Source of the DNA: an uncultured Bradyrhizobium sp.
GTDB taxonomy: Bacteria; Pseudomonadota; Alphaproteobacteria; Rhizobiales; Xanthobacteraceae
Length of the DNA stretch: 64,000 nucleotides
Direction: 5' to 3'
Assembly (NCBI RefSeq): GCF_936943645.1
Contig: NZ_CAKZJO010000083.1
Coordinates: 1 to 64,000 of the forward strand
Under the pieces are notes generated by a model. That model searched no databases and was not told the origin of the DNA. It saw only the letters and a program-made list of their open reading frames with translations. Within the stretch, counting starts at the first letter, position 1. Each line of letters begins with the position of its first letter. The position numbers were made by a program, and so were the translations under genes. Positions 12,961-48,127 of the stretch are shown one piece after another.

Positions 12961-14151
12961 TTAACGCCGGCCACCGCCCATCCCGCCTCCGGGACCACCG
13001 AATCCGCCACCCATTCCACCGCCGGGTCCCATGGGTCCGCCGGGCGATCCCATTCCACCGGGGGCTGACGGACCACCAGGTCCTGTCGGCGCAGAGCCGG
13101 GCATTGCTCCCGACGGCGGCGATCCCGGCGCGGGTGCGCCCGGTGCGCCGGGCTGACCGCCACCCGGATTGGGCGTGCTCCGATTCGGATGCAGGATCGA
13201 ACCACCGGGCGACCGGTTGGGATTGCCGCCGCCGGAAGGAGGCGCTCCGGGTCCTTGACCGATCGCCTGAGCCGTATCCACCTGGAAGCCGCGGGAACGG
13301 TCGAACGCACCGCCCACCACCATGCGCGCTTCGCCGGCCGCGGGTCCAAACCGCGAGCCATCACGGGCCACGAAGCCGGAACCAAGCTGGAGGTTCGCGC
13401 CCGCGCGCTGCACATAAGCCTCGACCGACAGGCGGCTTGCGCCGACCAGATCCGAGAAATCGTCGATCCGGGTGCGCGCCACCTGCATCGCCCCCTGGCT
13501 CGCGCTGCCTTCGATCTGCACGCGCTGGCCGGCCAGTAACGGATCGACCCCATTCAGCTTCAATCCGCCAATTCGCAAGCCGTCTGGCCCACGCTCGACC
13601 AGGCCCGTCACACGCTCGGTGGTCGCGCGTCGCGGTTCGACCAGACTTGCCACGATGACGCCGTCGGTCCGGCGCAGACCGTAGACGGCGACTTGCGAGC
13701 CCGGACGGAGCCTGCTCCCCTTGTCACTCACGACGATCTTCTGGCCGAGCACCGTCATTTCGTTGCCCTTTACCGTCTCGACGGGACCTGCAACTTCGCT
13801 CGCGATCGCGATATTGCGCGTGACGAGGGTGCCGTCGGCCTGACGGACCGCGACCACGCGGGCAAGCTGGCCGATGCGCAGAGCCTTGGGACTCGCCGCC
13901 TCGCCGTCGATCCGCACCGGCACGTCGCTGGCATAGGTGACCCGCTCGCCGTTGACGTAGATGCTGCCGAAGCGCTGGATGACGCCGACGATCCCGGTGC
14001 CGCCGATGCCGTGATCATCACCGCGCGTGATGCCGGTGCCGCCGATGCCCTGATCGGTGCCGCGCTTGACCTGCGCACGGGCGATGGCCGTACCGGCGAG
14101 CCAGAAACCCATCAACAGCAGACGGCGTGAGATCAGCGGCGGCCGGCTCAT
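12961..14151 (-). CDS. DUF5666 domain-containing protein with Gly/Pro-rich collagen-like tail
   Basis: 396 aa; repeated GIGGTGI segments, repeated OB-like DUF5666 modules, C-terminal GGPGGGMGGG tail. Confidence 0.82.
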   Translation of the reverse strand: MSRPPLISRRLLLMGFWLAGTAIARAQVKRGTDQGIGGTGITRGDDHGIGGTGIVGVIQRFGSIYVNGERVTYASDVPVRIDGEAASPKALRIGQLARVVAVRQADGTLVTRNIAIASEVAGPVETVKGNEMTVLGQKIVVSDKGSRLRPGSQVAVYGLRRTDGVIVASLVEPRRATTERVTGLVERGPDGLRIGGLKLNGVDPLLAGQRVQIEGSASQGAMQVARTRIDDFSDLVGASRLSVEAYVQRAGANLQLGSGFVARDGSRFGPAAGEARMVVGGAFDRSRGFQVDTAQAIGQGPGAPPSGGGNPNRSPGGSILHPNRSTPNPGGGQPGAPGAPAPGSPPSGAMPGSAPTGPGGPSAPGGMGSPGGPMGPGGGMGGGFGGPGGGMGGGRR

Positions 14152-15035
14152 GAAGAACCGCCCTCCTTGCCGCTCTCCTTGCCGTTGTCCCTGGAATCGC
14201 CCTCCTCGTCGGCGTCCTCGCTGTAGATGTAGATGCCGAAATTCCAGCGGGCGTCACCACCCTTGTCCTTGGCGAGCGCGCGGTTGGCCTCGCGGTTGGC
14301 GGTTTTCAGCGCGTCCATGGCGAGCTCGCGCGAGCGCGCCTCGAGTTTCCGCGCCAGCTTCGGCGAGATGTTGTTGTAGTGCACCGCGCGCTCGAGGAAG
14401 CGCGGCCCGTCCGAGACGTTCTGCGCGGCGGCCGCGATGTGGTCGTGCAGATTGCGGCCGAGATAGTGCCATTTGCTGTCATCCTCGCCTGACGGGACGA
14501 AGGCGGCCTCGACCAGCTCGATCTCGTCATCCGCGTTGATGGCGACGAGCTTGCGGTCGATCCATTCATCGAGCACCGCGCGCGGGCGCACGTCCTTGGT
14601 GACGGACGCGACCAACTGCTCGAACGACGGCGCATCGTCCTCTGCCGTACGCGGCAGCGGCAGCGGCTCCCCCTTGGCGTCCGTGAATTCGGGCGCGGCC
14701 AGCCAGCGCGCGATCACCGCGCTCGTCAGCGAAACCGCCGCCGGCGCCTCGTGTACCGGAGCCCCGGCGCCACGGAGCCGCGCCACCTCCTTGCGATGGA
14801 TGCCGGTGAGCAGGCTGACGCGACTGTCGGTCTGCTCCTTTCCCTCCAGCGCGAAATCGTGCTCGGCGACATTGACGAACAGCTCGCGCAGCAATTGCGC
14901 CAGCGCCGGAAAGGTCATGCCGCTGCGAATGCAGAGCCGCACCAGGGGGCGCAGCAGCCGCGCCAGCGGCGCGTGCAGCTTCGCGGCGGCATTCGGCTGC
15001 GGAGCCGCTGCTTTGGACCCGGACTTGGCGTTCAT
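14148..15035 (-). CDS. DUF6502 family protein, possible DNA-binding
   Basis: Start MNAKSGSKAAAPQ at 15035; LARLLRPLVRLCIRSGMTFPALAQLLRELFVNVAEHDF...SRVSLLTGIHRKEVARLR; ATGA overlap with the downstream DUF5666 gene. Confidence 0.8.
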   Translation of the reverse strand: MNAKSGSKAAAPQPNAAAKLHAPLARLLRPLVRLCIRSGMTFPALAQLLRELFVNVAEHDFALEGKEQTDSRVSLLTGIHRKEVARLRGAGAPVHEAPAAVSLTSAVIARWLAAPEFTDAKGEPLPLPRTAEDDAPSFEQLVASVTKDVRPRAVLDEWIDRKLVAINADDEIELVEAAFVPSGEDDSKWHYLGRNLHDHIAAAAQNVSDGPRFLERAVHYNNISPKLARKLEARSRELAMDALKTANREANRALAKDKGGDARWNFGIYIYSEDADEEGDSRDNGKESGKEGGSS

Positions 15036-15059
15036 GTCTGAACTGTAGCGATCGTCGGC

Positions 15060-15076
15060 GTGGGACACAATCCCAC
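15060..15076. promoter_or_regulatory. Putative operator 1: GTGGGACACAATCCCAC
   Basis: 17-bp dyad with perfect GTGGGA/TCCCAC arms. Confidence 0.5.
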
Positions 15077-15093
15077 TTTTTCCTGATTTCCAA

Positions 15094-15122
15094 TTGACGT
15101 GGTAAATTTTCCCACATATACG
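15094..15122 (+). promoter_or_regulatory. Putative promoter TTGACG-N17-TATACG
   Basis: -35 15094-15099 and -10 15117-15122 read directly; upstream of the polysaccharide operon. Confidence 0.5.
15099..15115. promoter_or_regulatory. Putative operator 2: GTGGTAAATTTTCCCAC
   Basis: 17-bp dyad, GTGG-N9-CCAC, same architecture as operator 1 and located between -35 and -10. Confidence 0.5.
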
Positions 15123-15159
15123 GATCGCCACTGAGGGGCGCGACGTAAAGGGACACGAC

Positions 15160-15321
15160 ATGGCTGACCATCTGGTCCGCATTTCCAGTTCACCGCGTGC
15201 CGTGCCGGCTCCCGGTTGGGGGCGCGGCGCGATCGAACCGATGCTGCCGGCACTGCTGCGCGGCGTGATCTTCATCTCGGTGCTGGCAGCGCCGTTCGTC
15301 GCGGCACTTCTGGCAGGCTGA
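15160..15321 (+). CDS. Putative 53-aa small membrane protein, first gene of the polysaccharide operon
   Basis: MADHLVRISSSPRAVPAPGWGRGAIEPMLPALLRGVIFISVLAAPFVAALLAG*; aagGGA upstream; ends 7 nt before the next start. Confidence 0.55.
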   Translation: MADHLVRISSSPRAVPAPGWGRGAIEPMLPALLRGVIFISVLAAPFVAALLAG

Positions 15322-15328
15322 CGCCATC

Positions 15329-17269
15329 ATGCATCACACCCAACAGACTTCGCACGACACCCCGCGCCGCCCGTCGGTGCTGCACATCTTCAAGATCTAC
15401 TATCCCGACCTGTTCGGCGGCACGCTCACGGTGATCCGCGACATCTGCGCGAGCTTGAAGGACGCCTTCGCCTCCGCCGTGCTGGTCTGCTCGCAATCGG
15501 CCGAGAAGCGCCAGATCGTCGTCAACGACGTGCCGGTCGAGCGCGTCCGCTCGTTCGGCAATCTGCTGTCGCTGCCGGCCGCCCCGACCTATCCCTGGCG
15601 CCTGTGGCGCAAGATCGCCGAGCATGACCTGCTGGCGCTGCACGCGCCCTTCCCGCTCGCCGACCTCGTTTTCGCGTTCGGCTTCGGGCGCAAGCGGCCG
15701 CTCGTGGTGCACTGGCACGCCGACATCGTCACCCATGCCGGCCTGCGCTGGTTCATCGAACCCTTGATGCGGCGGACGCTGCGGCAGGCCAAGGCGATCA
15801 TCGTCTCGGACCACGTGCTGGTCGACAACACCCCGCTGCTGCGCGAATTCGAGGACAAATGCCACGTCGTTCCGTTCGGCATCGACACCTCCGGCTATGA
15901 CTGGCCGAAGATCGAGGCGCACCACGTCAACGACCGCGGCCGGCTCGTGCTCGCCTGCGGCCGGCTGGTGCCCTACAAGGGGTTCGACGTGCTGATCCGC
16001 GCCGCGGCCGCACATGATTTCGAACTCTGGATCATCGGCGAAGGCGTCGAGCGCCCCCGGCTGGCGCAGCTCATCGAGGAGCTCGGTCTCTCTGAGCGCG
16101 TGCGCCTGCTCGGCTCGGTCAACGATTGCGAGCGCATCAAGCTGATGTGCCTCGCCGACGTCTTCGTGATGCCCTCGCTCACCAATGCCGAGACGTTCGG
16201 CCTCGTTCAGCTGGAGGCCATGGCCGCGGGCCGCCCGGTCGTCAACACGGCACTCGACACCGCCGTGCCGCGCGTTGCCCGCCACGGCCTGGAGGCGATC
16301 ACCGTGCCGCCCGGCGACGCCGGAAAACTGGGCGAGGCCATCGACACCCTGATCCGCGATCCCGAACGCCGCCGCCAGATGGGATTTGCCGCGCGGACGC
16401 GCGCCCTCTCCCGCTATTCGGCCACGGCCTTCAGGCAAGGCATGGAAACCGTCTACCGCGATGCCGTCACCGCGCCCAGCGAGCAGCGAACGATGAATGT
16501 CGAGCCACCGCCGGCGACCGCATGGTTCGACAGCATCCGGATCGCGGCGACGCTGGCCTGGTCGGACATGCGCCACCGCTACGTTCGCTCGCTGCTCGGC
16601 CCGTTCTGGATGTCGCTCCAGATGGCGATCGTGGTTGCGGTGCTGGGTTCGGTGATCGGGCAGATGTCGAACGCCGACGTGCTATCGCGTCTGCCGATGC
16701 TCGCGCTGTCGATGACGGCCTGGACCTTTCTCAACAGCGTGGTGCTCGACGCCACCACGGCACTGCAGAATTCCGCGAGCCTGATCCGCGACCGCGCATT
16801 GCCGCCGGTCATCTTCCTCCTGCAATGCACGTTTCGCCAGGCGCTGTTCGCGCTTCATAACGCCTGCGTGCCGCTGCTGCTGTGGCTGGTCCTGTCGCCG
16901 CACGACTTCTCGCACGGGTTGGCGGCGCTGCCCGGCCTGCTGCTGTTCGTGGTCTGCACCTTCGCCCTCAGCCTCGTTCTCGGCGCGATGGCAACGCGCT
17001 ATCGGGACCTCAAGCCGATCATCGAATCGACCCTGATGCTCGCCTTTCTCGCTTCCCCCGTGATCTGGTCCTCGGACATGATCAGCCATCGCTCGACGGT
17101 GATGCGGCTCAATCCGCTGACGCACCTCTTCGCGGTATGGCGCGAGCCTCTGACCGGCAGCCCGATCGATCCCGTCAGCATCGCCTACGTCCTCGTCGCG
17201 CTGGCGCTGCTGATCGGTGCGAGCCTGCTGACGCTGGTCCATCTGCGCAAAGCGGCGTTCTGGATCTGA
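15329..17269 (+). CDS. Fusion protein: GT4 glycosyltransferase (N-term) + ABC-2/Wzm-type polysaccharide export permease (C-term)
   Basis: 646 aa single ORF; N-term VLHIFKIYYPDLFGGT...LACGRLVPYKGFDVLI...VFVMPSLTNAETFGLVQLEAMAAGRPVV; C-term ATLAWSDMRHRYVRSLLGPFWMSLQMAIVVAVLGSVIGQM...SPVIWSSDM. In-frame ATG at 16493 near the domain border. Confidence 0.9.
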   Translation: MHHTQQTSHDTPRRPSVLHIFKIYYPDLFGGTLTVIRDICASLKDAFASAVLVCSQSAEKRQIVVNDVPVERVRSFGNLLSLPAAPTYPWRLWRKIAEHDLLALHAPFPLADLVFAFGFGRKRPLVVHWHADIVTHAGLRWFIEPLMRRTLRQAKAIIVSDHVLVDNTPLLREFEDKCHVVPFGIDTSGYDWPKIEAHHVNDRGRLVLACGRLVPYKGFDVLIRAAAAHDFELWIIGEGVERPRLAQLIEELGLSERVRLLGSVNDCERIKLMCLADVFVMPSLTNAETFGLVQLEAMAAGRPVVNTALDTAVPRVARHGLEAITVPPGDAGKLGEAIDTLIRDPERRRQMGFAARTRALSRYSATAFRQGMETVYRDAVTAPSEQRTMNVEPPPATAWFDSIRIAATLAWSDMRHRYVRSLLGPFWMSLQMAIVVAVLGSVIGQMSNADVLSRLPMLALSMTAWTFLNSVVLDATTALQNSASLIRDRALPPVIFLLQCTFRQALFALHNACVPLLLWLVLSPHDFSHGLAALPGLLLFVVCTFALSLVLGAMATRYRDLKPIIESTLMLAFLASPVIWSSDMISHRSTVMRLNPLTHLFAVWREPLTGSPIDPVSIAYVLVALALLIGASLLTLVHLRKAAFWI

Positions 17270-17272
17270 TCC

Positions 17273-18013
17273 ATGGTCTCGATAAGTCTGCGCAATGTCT
17301 GTCTCGACTATCCGCTCTACGGCGCCTACGACTATTCGCTGAAACGGCGGCTGCTCGGCCGTCTCATCCGCGAGCCGGCCGAGATGCGGATCATCCGCGC
17401 CGTGGATGACGTCACCATCGAGGCCGAAACCGGCGCCCGAATCGGGCTCGCCGGCCCCAACGGCTCCGGCAAGTCGACCCTGTTGCGGTTAATCGCCGGC
17501 GTCTATCCGCCGAGCAGCGGCGGCATCGCGATCCAGGGCAATGTGGTGCCCCTGCTCGGCCTCAACGCCGGCGTCAATCTCGATTTCGTCGCGGAGGACA
17601 ACATCGCGCTGCTGCTGCGGATCAGCGGCCGCAAACCGACCCGCACGATGATCGACGAGATCTGGGCCTTCACCGAGCTCGAAACCCGGATGCAGCGGCT
17701 TCCCTTGCGGATGTTCTCTTCGGGCATGCTGATGCGGGTGCTGTTTGCCACCGCCACGGCCTTCCCCGCCGACATCCTCCTGCTCGACGAATGGCTCAGC
17801 GTCGTCGACGAGCATTTCGCGGAGAAGGCCGAGGAGCGCCTGCTCAATCTCGTGTCGCAGGCCGCGATCGTGATCATCGCCTCGCACGACCAGCCGCTGC
17901 TACGCCGCATCTGCACCAGCGTCATCAATCTAGATCACGGCCGCATCGCCTCCATCGTCACGGTCGAGCCGCCGGCCACGCACGCCTTCCAGCTTCGCGA
18001 GCAACGCGCATGA
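17273..18013 (+). CDS. Polysaccharide ABC transporter ATPase (Wzt/KpsT-like, no C-terminal carbohydrate-binding domain)
   Basis: 246 aa; Walker A GPNGSGKSTLLRLIAGVYPPSSG, FSSGMLMRVLFATATAF signature, DILLLDEWLSVVDEHF. Confidence 0.93.
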   Translation: MVSISLRNVCLDYPLYGAYDYSLKRRLLGRLIREPAEMRIIRAVDDVTIEAETGARIGLAGPNGSGKSTLLRLIAGVYPPSSGGIAIQGNVVPLLGLNAGVNLDFVAEDNIALLLRISGRKPTRTMIDEIWAFTELETRMQRLPLRMFSSGMLMRVLFATATAFPADILLLDEWLSVVDEHFAEKAEERLLNLVSQAAIVIIASHDQPLLRRICTSVINLDHGRIASIVTVEPPATHAFQLREQRA

Positions 18014-19404
18014 ATCAGAACATCCTCGTCGTCTCCGAGTCGCTCGGACAACCCAATCACAAGCGCGGCATCTTCCACTTCACCCGCGAACTGGTCCGTT
18101 CGCTCGCTTCGGAGGGCCACGAGCTCACGTTGCTGGTGGAGACCTCGAAGCGCTACCGCAAGCTGGTCCGTCGCGAGCGACGTACAAAGCTGTTCGCGGC
18201 GCAGGCGCGCAACATCGAGCTGCTCGCGCTCTATCGCTTCCTCGACGAAATCAACGTGAGCGGACCGGTGACCTTCAGCGGTGCGCGCCGCAAATTCGGC
18301 TGGCTCCGCCAGCGCGCCGGCACGTTGCTGTCGCGCGACGTCATTCTCTGCATCCTTCGCACGATTGGCCTGCGGGGCTTGAACGCGAAGCGGATCGCGA
18401 ACCGGACGGCCGCGCTCGAATACATTCCGCCGGATTTGAACCACCTCGAACTGTTCGGCGAATTCCAGCTCGAGCCGGGATTCTTCAACTATCAGGATTC
18501 CTCGGCCTTCTTCCTGCTGCCGCCGCCGCGGATCGATGCGCGCGACTACGACGTCATCGTCGTGGACACCCCTACGCGGGTGGCGATCACACGCAAGCCC
18601 GGCGCCAAGGTGATCTGCGTCGTGCACGATCTGCTGCCGCTCACCGACCTCAAGCTCAGCGACATCGCCACGCGGCAGTTCCTGGCGCGAATCCGCACCA
18701 GCCTGCGCCAGGCCGACGAGCTCGCCTTCGTTTCAAACTACAGCATGATGCGGTTCAGGGAACTGTTGCCGCAATTTGCCCACCTGCCGGCGCGGGTCGT
18801 GTATCCCCGCACCCGGTTCGACGCCCCGGATGTCCTGCACCTCCCAGCCCCGTCGGGGCGTCCGGGGCGGCCGAGCTTTGTCGTCATCGTCTCGAACGAA
18901 CCGCGCAAGAACGTCGCCACCGTCGTCCGCGCCTTCCGTGGCGTGCCCCAGGCCGACCTCGTCGTGATCGGCTATGCCGGCGAGATCGGCGGAATGCGGA
19001 ATCTGCCGCCGAACGTGCGGTTCGCCGGTTACGTCGACGAGCACGAAAAGGCGGCCCTGATTGCGGAGGCGCACGGCCTGATCATGCCGAGCCTCGCCGA
19101 AGGCTTCGGCGTGCCGATCATCGAGGCGCTGGCTGCGAACACGCCCGTGCTGTGCTCCGACATCGCCGTGTTCCGCGAGGTCGCAGGCGAACTTGCCGAC
19201 TATTTCGACCCGTTCTCCACGGACTCGATCGCCGCCTCCGTCACCCGCGCGCTGACGCGGCAGGAGGAGTGGCGCGGCAGGATCCGGGCGCAGCGCCACG
19301 CGCTCGCGCGACGCTTTGGCTACGAGACCCAGGCCCGCGATTTCCTCGGCGAGCCGGTGCGCGCCGAAAGCCTCGCGACCCCACAGCTCGCATCGTACGG
19401 ATGA
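18010..19404 (+). CDS. GT4-type glycosyltransferase
   Basis: ATGA overlap with upstream gene; SNEPRKNVATVVRAFRGVPQADLVVIGYAG, GLIMPSLAEGFGVPIIEALAANTPVLCSDIAVFREVAGE. Confidence 0.9.
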   Translation: MNQNILVVSESLGQPNHKRGIFHFTRELVRSLASEGHELTLLVETSKRYRKLVRRERRTKLFAAQARNIELLALYRFLDEINVSGPVTFSGARRKFGWLRQRAGTLLSRDVILCILRTIGLRGLNAKRIANRTAALEYIPPDLNHLELFGEFQLEPGFFNYQDSSAFFLLPPPRIDARDYDVIVVDTPTRVAITRKPGAKVICVVHDLLPLTDLKLSDIATRQFLARIRTSLRQADELAFVSNYSMMRFRELLPQFAHLPARVVYPRTRFDAPDVLHLPAPSGRPGRPSFVVIVSNEPRKNVATVVRAFRGVPQADLVVIGYAGEIGGMRNLPPNVRFAGYVDEHEKAALIAEAHGLIMPSLAEGFGVPIIEALAANTPVLCSDIAVFREVAGELADYFDPFSTDSIAASVTRALTRQEEWRGRIRAQRHALARRFGYETQARDFLGEPVRAESLATPQLASYG

Positions 19405-20678
19405 GCGCCGAGAGCGCACTGCTGTCCGCTCCGGCCGATCAGCGAGACGGTCGGGACCGATGGCAAACCTGGCGCAAGTCGGCCGCGCTGGCCCGGACGG
19501 CAGACGTGCTGGTCGTCCTGACCGCGGCCTCGCTGCCGTGGTCGACCACGGCGCCCTCGATCTTTGTCGGGCTCTTTCTGCTTGTGGTGACACCGACCAT
19601 CGACTGGCCGGACTATGCGCGCAGGTTCGCGCGACCGGCGTATGCTCTGCCCATCGCAATCCTGCTGCTCGCGCTCGCGGGCCTGCTGTGGTCGGACGCA
19701 GCCTGGGCTGACCGCTTGCACGCGATCAAGCCGGTCGCAAAGCTCGTGCTGATACCGCCGCTGCTCTACCATTTCAGCCGCTCGGATCGCGGGGCTTGGG
19801 TTGGCCTCGCCTTTCTCGTTTCCTGTGCCGTGCTTGCGGTCTTCTCCTGGATCGTGCTGCTCGAACCCGCCTGGAAACTCACCGCGACGGCATCACCGGG
19901 CGTTCCCGTCAAGAACTATATCGACCAGAGCCAGGAGTTCACGCTCTGCGCTTTTGCGCTCGCGGTGCCGGTGCTCACGTTCCGGCGCAGCGGACGCGCA
20001 ATCGCTACAGCCGCCTGCCTTGCACTCATTCTGCTGTTCGCCACCAACATGATCTTTGTTGCCTCGGCCCGTACGGCGCTGCTGTGCATTGGCGTGCTGC
20101 TGGCCTTGTTTGCCTGGAAGCATCTGGCCCGGCGGGCAGCGCTGGTTCTGTTCGCAGGCTCGGTCGCCGCGAGCCTCTTCGCCTGGACGACGTCGCCCTA
20201 CCTGCGTCAGCGCGTCACGGATATCGCCGTCGAGTATCGCCACGGCCATGAGGACATCAGCCGCGCCTCGACCGCTCAGCGCCTAACCTATTGGCGCAAA
20301 TCGCTGCACGCCTTCGCCGAGGCGCCTCTGCTCGGCCACGGCACCGGCTCGATCAAGCGACAGTTCGAGCGCGCCGCCACGGGCGAAAGCAATCTCGACG
20401 CGGAAATCGTCAACAATCCGCACAACCAGACCCTCAACGTCGCCGTGCAGTGGGGCCTCCTGGGCGTCGCCCTGCTCTACGCACTCTGGATCGCCCATCT
20501 CCGCCTGTTCCTCGGCGGAGGGCTCGCGGCCTGGATGGGCCTCGTCGTCGTGGTGCAGAACATCACAAGTTCCTTGCTGAACTCGCACCTGTTCGACTTC
20601 CACGAGGGGTGGATGTATGTGCTGGGTGTCGGCGTCGCCGGCGGTACCGTGCTGAAGAGGACCGCCGGCCAATCCTGA
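19401..20678 (+). CDS. O-antigen ligase / polymerase family (WaaL/Wzy-like) membrane protein
   Basis: ATGA overlap; polytopic, with RLTYWRKSLHAFAEAPLLGHGTGSIKRQF...NPHNQTLNVAVQWGLLGVALLYALW. Confidence 0.88.
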   Translation: MSAESALLSAPADQRDGRDRWQTWRKSAALARTADVLVVLTAASLPWSTTAPSIFVGLFLLVVTPTIDWPDYARRFARPAYALPIAILLLALAGLLWSDAAWADRLHAIKPVAKLVLIPPLLYHFSRSDRGAWVGLAFLVSCAVLAVFSWIVLLEPAWKLTATASPGVPVKNYIDQSQEFTLCAFALAVPVLTFRRSGRAIATAACLALILLFATNMIFVASARTALLCIGVLLALFAWKHLARRAALVLFAGSVAASLFAWTTSPYLRQRVTDIAVEYRHGHEDISRASTAQRLTYWRKSLHAFAEAPLLGHGTGSIKRQFERAATGESNLDAEIVNNPHNQTLNVAVQWGLLGVALLYALWIAHLRLFLGGGLAAWMGLVVVVQNITSSLLNSHLFDFHEGWMYVLGVGVAGGTVLKRTAGQS

Positions 20679-47690: not shown

Positions 47691-48127
47691 CCCAGCCTGT
47701 CACCATCATCATGATCGAGGACGACGAGGGCCACGCCCGCCTGATCGAGCGCAACATCCGCCGATCGGGGGTCAACAACGAGATCGTCTCCTTCCAGAAC
47801 GGCACGGACGCGATGATGCACCTGTTCGGCGCCGACGGCTCCGGGCTCGTGCAGAAGGGCAACGCGCTCCTGATCCTGCTCGACCTCAACCTGCCCGACA
47901 TGACCGGGATCGACATCCTCAGGCAGATCAAGGAGAACAAATATCTGAAGGCCTCGCCCGTGGTGGTGCTGACCACCACCGACGACAGCCAGGAAATCAA
48001 GCGCTGCTACGAGCTCGGCTGCAACGTCTACATCACCAAGCCCGTCAACTACGAGAATTTCGCCAATGCCATCCGGCAGCTCGGCCTGTTCTTCTCGGTC
48101 ATCCAGGTCCCGCCCGCCGCCCCATGA
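47687..48127 (+). CDS. Single-domain response regulator
   Basis: 146 aa; IIMIEDDEGHARLIERNIRRSG, LLILLDLNLPDMTGIDIL; ATGA overlap with kinase. Confidence 0.93.
   Translation: MTQPVTIIMIEDDEGHARLIERNIRRSGVNNEIVSFQNGTDAMMHLFGADGSGLVQKGNALLILLDLNLPDMTGIDILRQIKENKYLKASPVVVLTTTDDSQEIKRCYELGCNVYITKPVNYENFANAIRQLGLFFSVIQVPPAAP

Follow-up and report, generated by a model that had tools for sequence, protein, structure and literature searches.

Conserved paired dyads at a divergent promoter in Bradyrhizobium as probable operators of an autoregulatory DUF6502 protein

The window, a 64,000-nucleotide stretch of DNA from an uncultured Bradyrhizobium sp., contains two divergently oriented sets of genes. 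On the minus strand, the DUF6502 gene (14148..15035) encodes a 295-residue protein of the Pfam family PF20112 (E 1.7e-29), which aligns over residues 20-273 with 102.9 bits against a cut-off of 27 and is here proposed to be an autoregulator. The neighbouring DUF5666 gene (12961..14151, minus strand; 396 aa; PF18914, E 2.4e-10) has a start codon that overlaps the DUF6502 stop, which places the two genes in the same operon. The DUF5666 protein is likely exported; it starts with MSRPPLISRRLLLMGF, a sequence that resembles a twin-arginine export signal. On the plus strand, the divergent transcript begins with a small ORF (15160..15321, 53 aa) that has a hydrophobic C-terminus, PMLPALLRGVIFISVLAAPFVAALLAG, and no Pfam match. 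Most loci of the Bradyrhizobium clade to which the window belongs keep its frame and sequence, as does one further genome, G032 (locus L291). It is followed by polysaccharide genes (15329..20678, plus strand), which Pfam identifies as a GT4-ABC2 permease fusion (15329-17269), an ABC ATPase (17273-18013), a glycosyltransferase (within 17791-19404) and an O-antigen ligase-like protein (within 19152-20678). The first of these encodes one 646-residue protein in which a GT4 glycosyltransferase and an ABC-2 type permease are combined, and a fusion of the same length occurs in Bradyrhizobium relatives, e.g. locus L046.

Two dyads with centres 39 bp apart had been noted between these genes, and the sequence bears them out. 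Dyad 1 (candidate operator 1) is GTGGGACACAATCCCAC at 15060-15076, centred on 15068, and reads GTGGGATTGTGTCCCAC on the DUF6502 strand (15076-15060). Dyad 2 (candidate operator 2) is GTGGTAAATTTTCCCAC at 15099-15115, centred on 15107, and reads GTGGGAAAATTTACCAC on that strand (15115-15099). The predicted divergent promoter (15094..15122, plus strand), behind which the small ORF lies, comprises a -35 hexamer TTGACG (15094-15099), a 17-bp spacing and a -10 hexamer TATACG (15117-15122). Dyad 2 sits between the two hexamers, as originally described, and fills the spacer at 15099-15115, so that dyad and -35 hexamer overlap by one base, the final one of the hexamer. The promoter scores under the threshold of a simple promoter scan; the TTGACG-N17-TAtacg-like layout recurs in most Bradyrhizobium loci and also in Methylobacterium, with a weaker -10 there. 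Dyad 1 covers the weak -35 of a putative DUF6502 promoter (15042..15070, minus strand), composed of TTGTGT (15070-15065), 17 bp and TACAGT (15047-15042). This promoter is a weak match to the consensus and is not reported by the simple scan; its TACAAT-like -10 is kept in relatives. Because TACAGT lies only six bases before the DUF6502 ATG, transcription is predicted to start at or beside the ATG and to yield a leaderless mRNA. Leaderless mRNAs are known in Bradyrhizobium, where 192 mapped starts coincide precisely with a start codon (PMC4842269).

Pattern scans of the genome revealed that the informative part of these dyads is narrower than first described. The loose pattern GTGG-N9-CCAC is found five times in the window (0.83 expected), a number reached in 1 of 100 shuffles, and two of the five overlap one another at 47960. 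Genome-wide it occurs at 84 places compared to 148 for the reversed control, which is no enrichment, and the loose scan was set aside as uninformative. By contrast, the tighter motif GTGGGA-N5-T(A/C)CCAC has exact matches in the 7.28-Mb genome only at the two dyads; among the near matches in other places are two GTGGGTTCGAATCCCAC sequences that resemble tRNA. The genome-wide check proposed with the original prediction thus turned out favourably with the refined motif, which is confined to this locus; the loose one is common. TGGGA-N5-TCCCA, not GTGG-N9-CCAC, is the actual core of the dyads, and the Bradyrhizobium regulon appears to consist of this locus only.

Footprinting across 80 loci with DUF6502 orthologues from one scan (67 Bradyrhizobium and 13 Methylobacterium/Methylorubrum, the latter with 64-71% protein identity) revealed that both dyads are maintained between the orthologous genes while their flanks drift. 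Among the 67 Bradyrhizobium loci, dyad 1 varies at a single central position (88%), and carries 1.97 bits per base versus 0.67 in the flanks; the corresponding values in Methylobacterium/Methylorubrum are 1.94 and 0.87 bits per position. Dyad 2 carries 1.75 bits per base in Bradyrhizobium versus 0.56 in the flanks, with one half perfect throughout and the other half clade-dependent (GTGGT, GTGTG or GTGGG). The divergent genes differ between clades, and the sites stay with DUF6502. This conservation bears on two other readings of the dyads. That dyad 1 together with TTTTT on the plus strand forms an intrinsic terminator is suggested by a terminator-like match reported at 15060-15076; however, no gene reads rightwards into dyad 1, the stem has 6 pairs only, loop and stem are equally well conserved (88-100%) and the T tract is not conserved, while dyad 2 and the dyads found across the phylum lack a T tract. 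We rejected the terminator, to which we assign a negligible probability. Only slightly less improbable is that the conservation reflects core promoter elements and no operator: the TTGTG at the centre of dyad 1 and the TTGAC beside dyad 2 are promoter-like, but conservation is highest in the GTGGGA and TCCCAC arms, which lie beyond the hexamers and are mirror-symmetric with a spacer fixed at 5 or 6 bp phylum-wide and no other spacers.

The sites also follow the presence of the gene. DUF6502 is present in 56 of 149 Bradyrhizobium genomes, and GTGGGATTGTRTCCCAC occurs once per genome in 55 of these 56 and in none of the 93 negatives, with a control pattern that never occurs; the 56th positive genome, G032, has a one-base variant, GTGGGATTGTCTCCCAC, at the same place. 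Since this co-occurrence probably reflects one inherited module rather than many independent events, it counts as an association only. Close orthologues of the GT4-ABC2 gene were not found in the 50 DUF6502-negative genomes examined (best 43% identity), which indicates that the polysaccharide module and the dyads come and go together. Separately, a locus titled Frankia sp. RB7 (L071) is Bradyrhizobium-like, with a DUF6502 protein of 89% identity, and probably stems from a mislabelled genome.

Beyond these genera, exact TGGGA-Nx-TCCCA sites were sought in the 350 nt that precede each of 114 DUF6502 genes drawn from the whole phylum. The spacer x is 5 in 25 genes and 6 in 25, none of the 114 genes has a site with a different x in the range 0 to 12, and shuffled upstream regions gave a mean of 0.04 genes with an exact site. 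With up to one mismatch allowed, 75 genes have a site versus 2.4 in shuffles. Some of the remaining genes carry variant dyads, e.g. CGGGATTATTATCCCG or GGGGAAATTTCCCC, and about one quarter of the sampled genes have no recognizable site within reach. Several genes lacking a nearby site come after a DUF5666-type gene, and in eight such operons, re-examined with longer upstream sequence, an exact N6 site stands in front of the first gene in seven; a ninth locus (L290) has two exact sites before the gene that precedes DUF6502. Such a position upstream of the first gene is where the operator of a putative operon promoter would be expected. Several loci with N5-type proteins (L166, L170, L174, L212 and L213) contain not two but three spaced dyads.

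Phylogenetic analysis of 107 DUF6502 proteins (FastTree; some forks with modest support) showed that the division between spacer classes coincides with that of the proteins: the N5 clade has 37 N5 sites and no N6 site, and the N6 clade has 45 N6 sites and no N5 site. The residue in front of the RK pair that contains the invariant Arg81 is histidine in 37 of 37 N5 cases, and Thr, Ser, Asn or Asp in 39 of the 40 scored N6 cases. Operators of the N6 clade frequently surround the -10 box, which follows a TTGAC -35. In four genomes (G389, G489, G570 and G699) the two clades are represented side by side by paralogues; wherever a site was called, its spacer class matches the clade of the paralogue concerned, the N5 site in G489 and G699 carrying one mismatch. 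The operator type therefore co-varies with the DUF6502 protein, paralogues included, as is characteristic of an autoregulatory transcription factor. An outside regulator common to the genome would not fit this pattern, as the spacer class tracks the clade even between paralogues. We accordingly consider it unlikely that another widespread transcription factor controls the DUF6502 locus through these dyads; it gains some room from the putative nature of both DUF6502 binding and its helix-turn-helix, and it is countered further by the restriction of exact sites to this locus and their absence from all DUF6502-negative Bradyrhizobium genomes.

Within the DUF6502 protein, TDSRVSLLTGIHRKEVARL is the most conserved part, with Gly78 and Arg81 invariant and Ser71 and Lys82 nearly so among 40 diverse homologues. 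The conserved pattern TxSRxSxxTGxHRKxV has a predicted helix-turn-helix secondary structure, taken from an AlphaFold model with helices at residues 70-77 and 81-89; this model is poor (mean pLDDT 46.5), as its alignment of 17 close homologues was too shallow for a usable one. Comparison with the helix-turn-helix families of Pfam and NCBIfam gave sporadic weak matches and none that was consistent, and a profile search of the PDB yielded no solved relative, with two chance-level matches only. The DNA-binding role first proposed for this conserved N-terminal region is thus plausible by sequence, and TDSRVSLLTGIHRKEVARL might form a helix-turn-helix, although neither a known family of this fold nor a solved structure matched it.

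Altogether, because TGGGA and TCCCA arms separated by 5 or 6 bases precede DUF6502 genes across Proteobacteria, both dyads are very probably docking sites of the neighbouring DUF6502 protein. The proposal that this protein exerts control through them is strengthened by the way in which the sites track DUF6502 between genera, throughout the phylum and among paralogues, and not the divergent gene. In addition, a conserved symmetric site is found at its own putative promoter, as in autoregulatory transcription factors, and the location of dyad 1 on that promoter and of dyad 2 on the conserved divergent promoter fits a two-way control. We thus regard it as very likely that DUF6502 is a DNA-binding autoregulator, probably a repressor, of its own operon and the divergent small-ORF/polysaccharide operon. 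In the proposed mechanism, DUF6502 would act most likely as a homodimer that recognizes TGGGA-N5-TCCCA here, and TGGGA-N6-TCCCA in the sister clade. At dyad 1 it would cover the -35 of the DUF6502 promoter, and at dyad 2 it would sit between the two hexamers of the divergent one. RNA polymerase would thereby be excluded, and both the DUF6502-DUF5666 operon and the small-ORF/polysaccharide operon repressed, until a signal, possibly envelope or redox stress, brings relief.

The sign of this control is probably negative. Operators over a -35, between the hexamers and around the -10 of the N6 clade favour repression by exclusion of RNA polymerase. Activation of both operons by DUF6502 bound at the dyads would agree with the fixed positions of the sites relative to the promoters and with the weakness of the DUF6502 promoter against the consensus, and keeps a modest share of the probability; yet dyad 1 on the -35, dyad 2 between -35 and -10, and the N6 operator on the -10 are arrangements typical of repression. 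MerR-like activation from within a spacer is conceivable, but it uses spacers of 19-20 bp, compared to 17 bp here.

W-TGGGA-W-N4-W-TCCCA-W was sought in 22 genomes of Gammaproteobacteria, the class to which G389 belongs judging by the sampled proteins, and of relatives. Most sites lie at DUF6502 or DUF5666 genes, and the control pattern matched once overall. Unlinked sites lie some 30-90 nt before DUF5666 genes (L321, L322 and L323), an MtrC-like multihaem cytochrome (L320), a β-propeller lipoprotein (L318) and a thioredoxin-like protein (L311), and about 110-135 nt before an Fe-S/flavin oxidoreductase with a divergent partner (L310 and L313); some have no clear target. In G503 and G691, the exact N6 site (L310 2003-2020 and L313 2090-2107, respectively) falls between the same pair of genes, encoding a membrane protein and the Fe-S/flavin oxidoreductase. 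In 274 genomes of this class, DUF5666 is found in 64 of 76 DUF6502-positive genomes versus 8 of 198 negatives. About one quarter of the genomes sampled from one proteobacterial class contain the DUF6502 family; in others its presence is patchy. A family of unknown function would thereby become a testable new family of gene regulators, with a concrete operator and a predicted regulon. The spacer of 5 or 6 bp would represent a natural specificity switch that can be tested, and the uncharacterized DUF5666 proteins would gain a candidate regulator, in a context that suggests envelope redox functions. Going further, DUF6502 could be a structurally new class of transcription factors, with two clades whose operators differ by one spacer base and which control their own leaderless mRNAs, exported DUF5666 proteins and periplasmic redox proteins; we offer this extension tentatively, as possible rather than probable.

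In the literature searched, we found no paper naming PF20112 or giving it a function, nor the operator TGGGA-N5-TCCCA, and both the family and its operator appear to be undescribed there. Like MraZ, DUF6502 has a short, G-rich recognition element close to the gene that encodes it. The element read by MraZ consists of direct repeats (AAAGTG[T/G] in Mollicutes; PMC8475190), whereas the DUF6502-linked sites have arms in inverted orientation and a spacer fixed at 5 or 6 bp. An MraZ-type site was rejected, as the dyads form no direct-repeat array and the site is missing from the 93 Bradyrhizobium genomes that lack DUF6502. Systems of this kind, in which a DNA-binding protein controls its own gene through a palindromic operator, are well known. 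Although profile searches place DUF6502 in none of the TetR, LacI and LexA families, it resembles these regulators as a general class in its two-fold symmetric operator on its own and the divergent promoter, and in its small local regulon.
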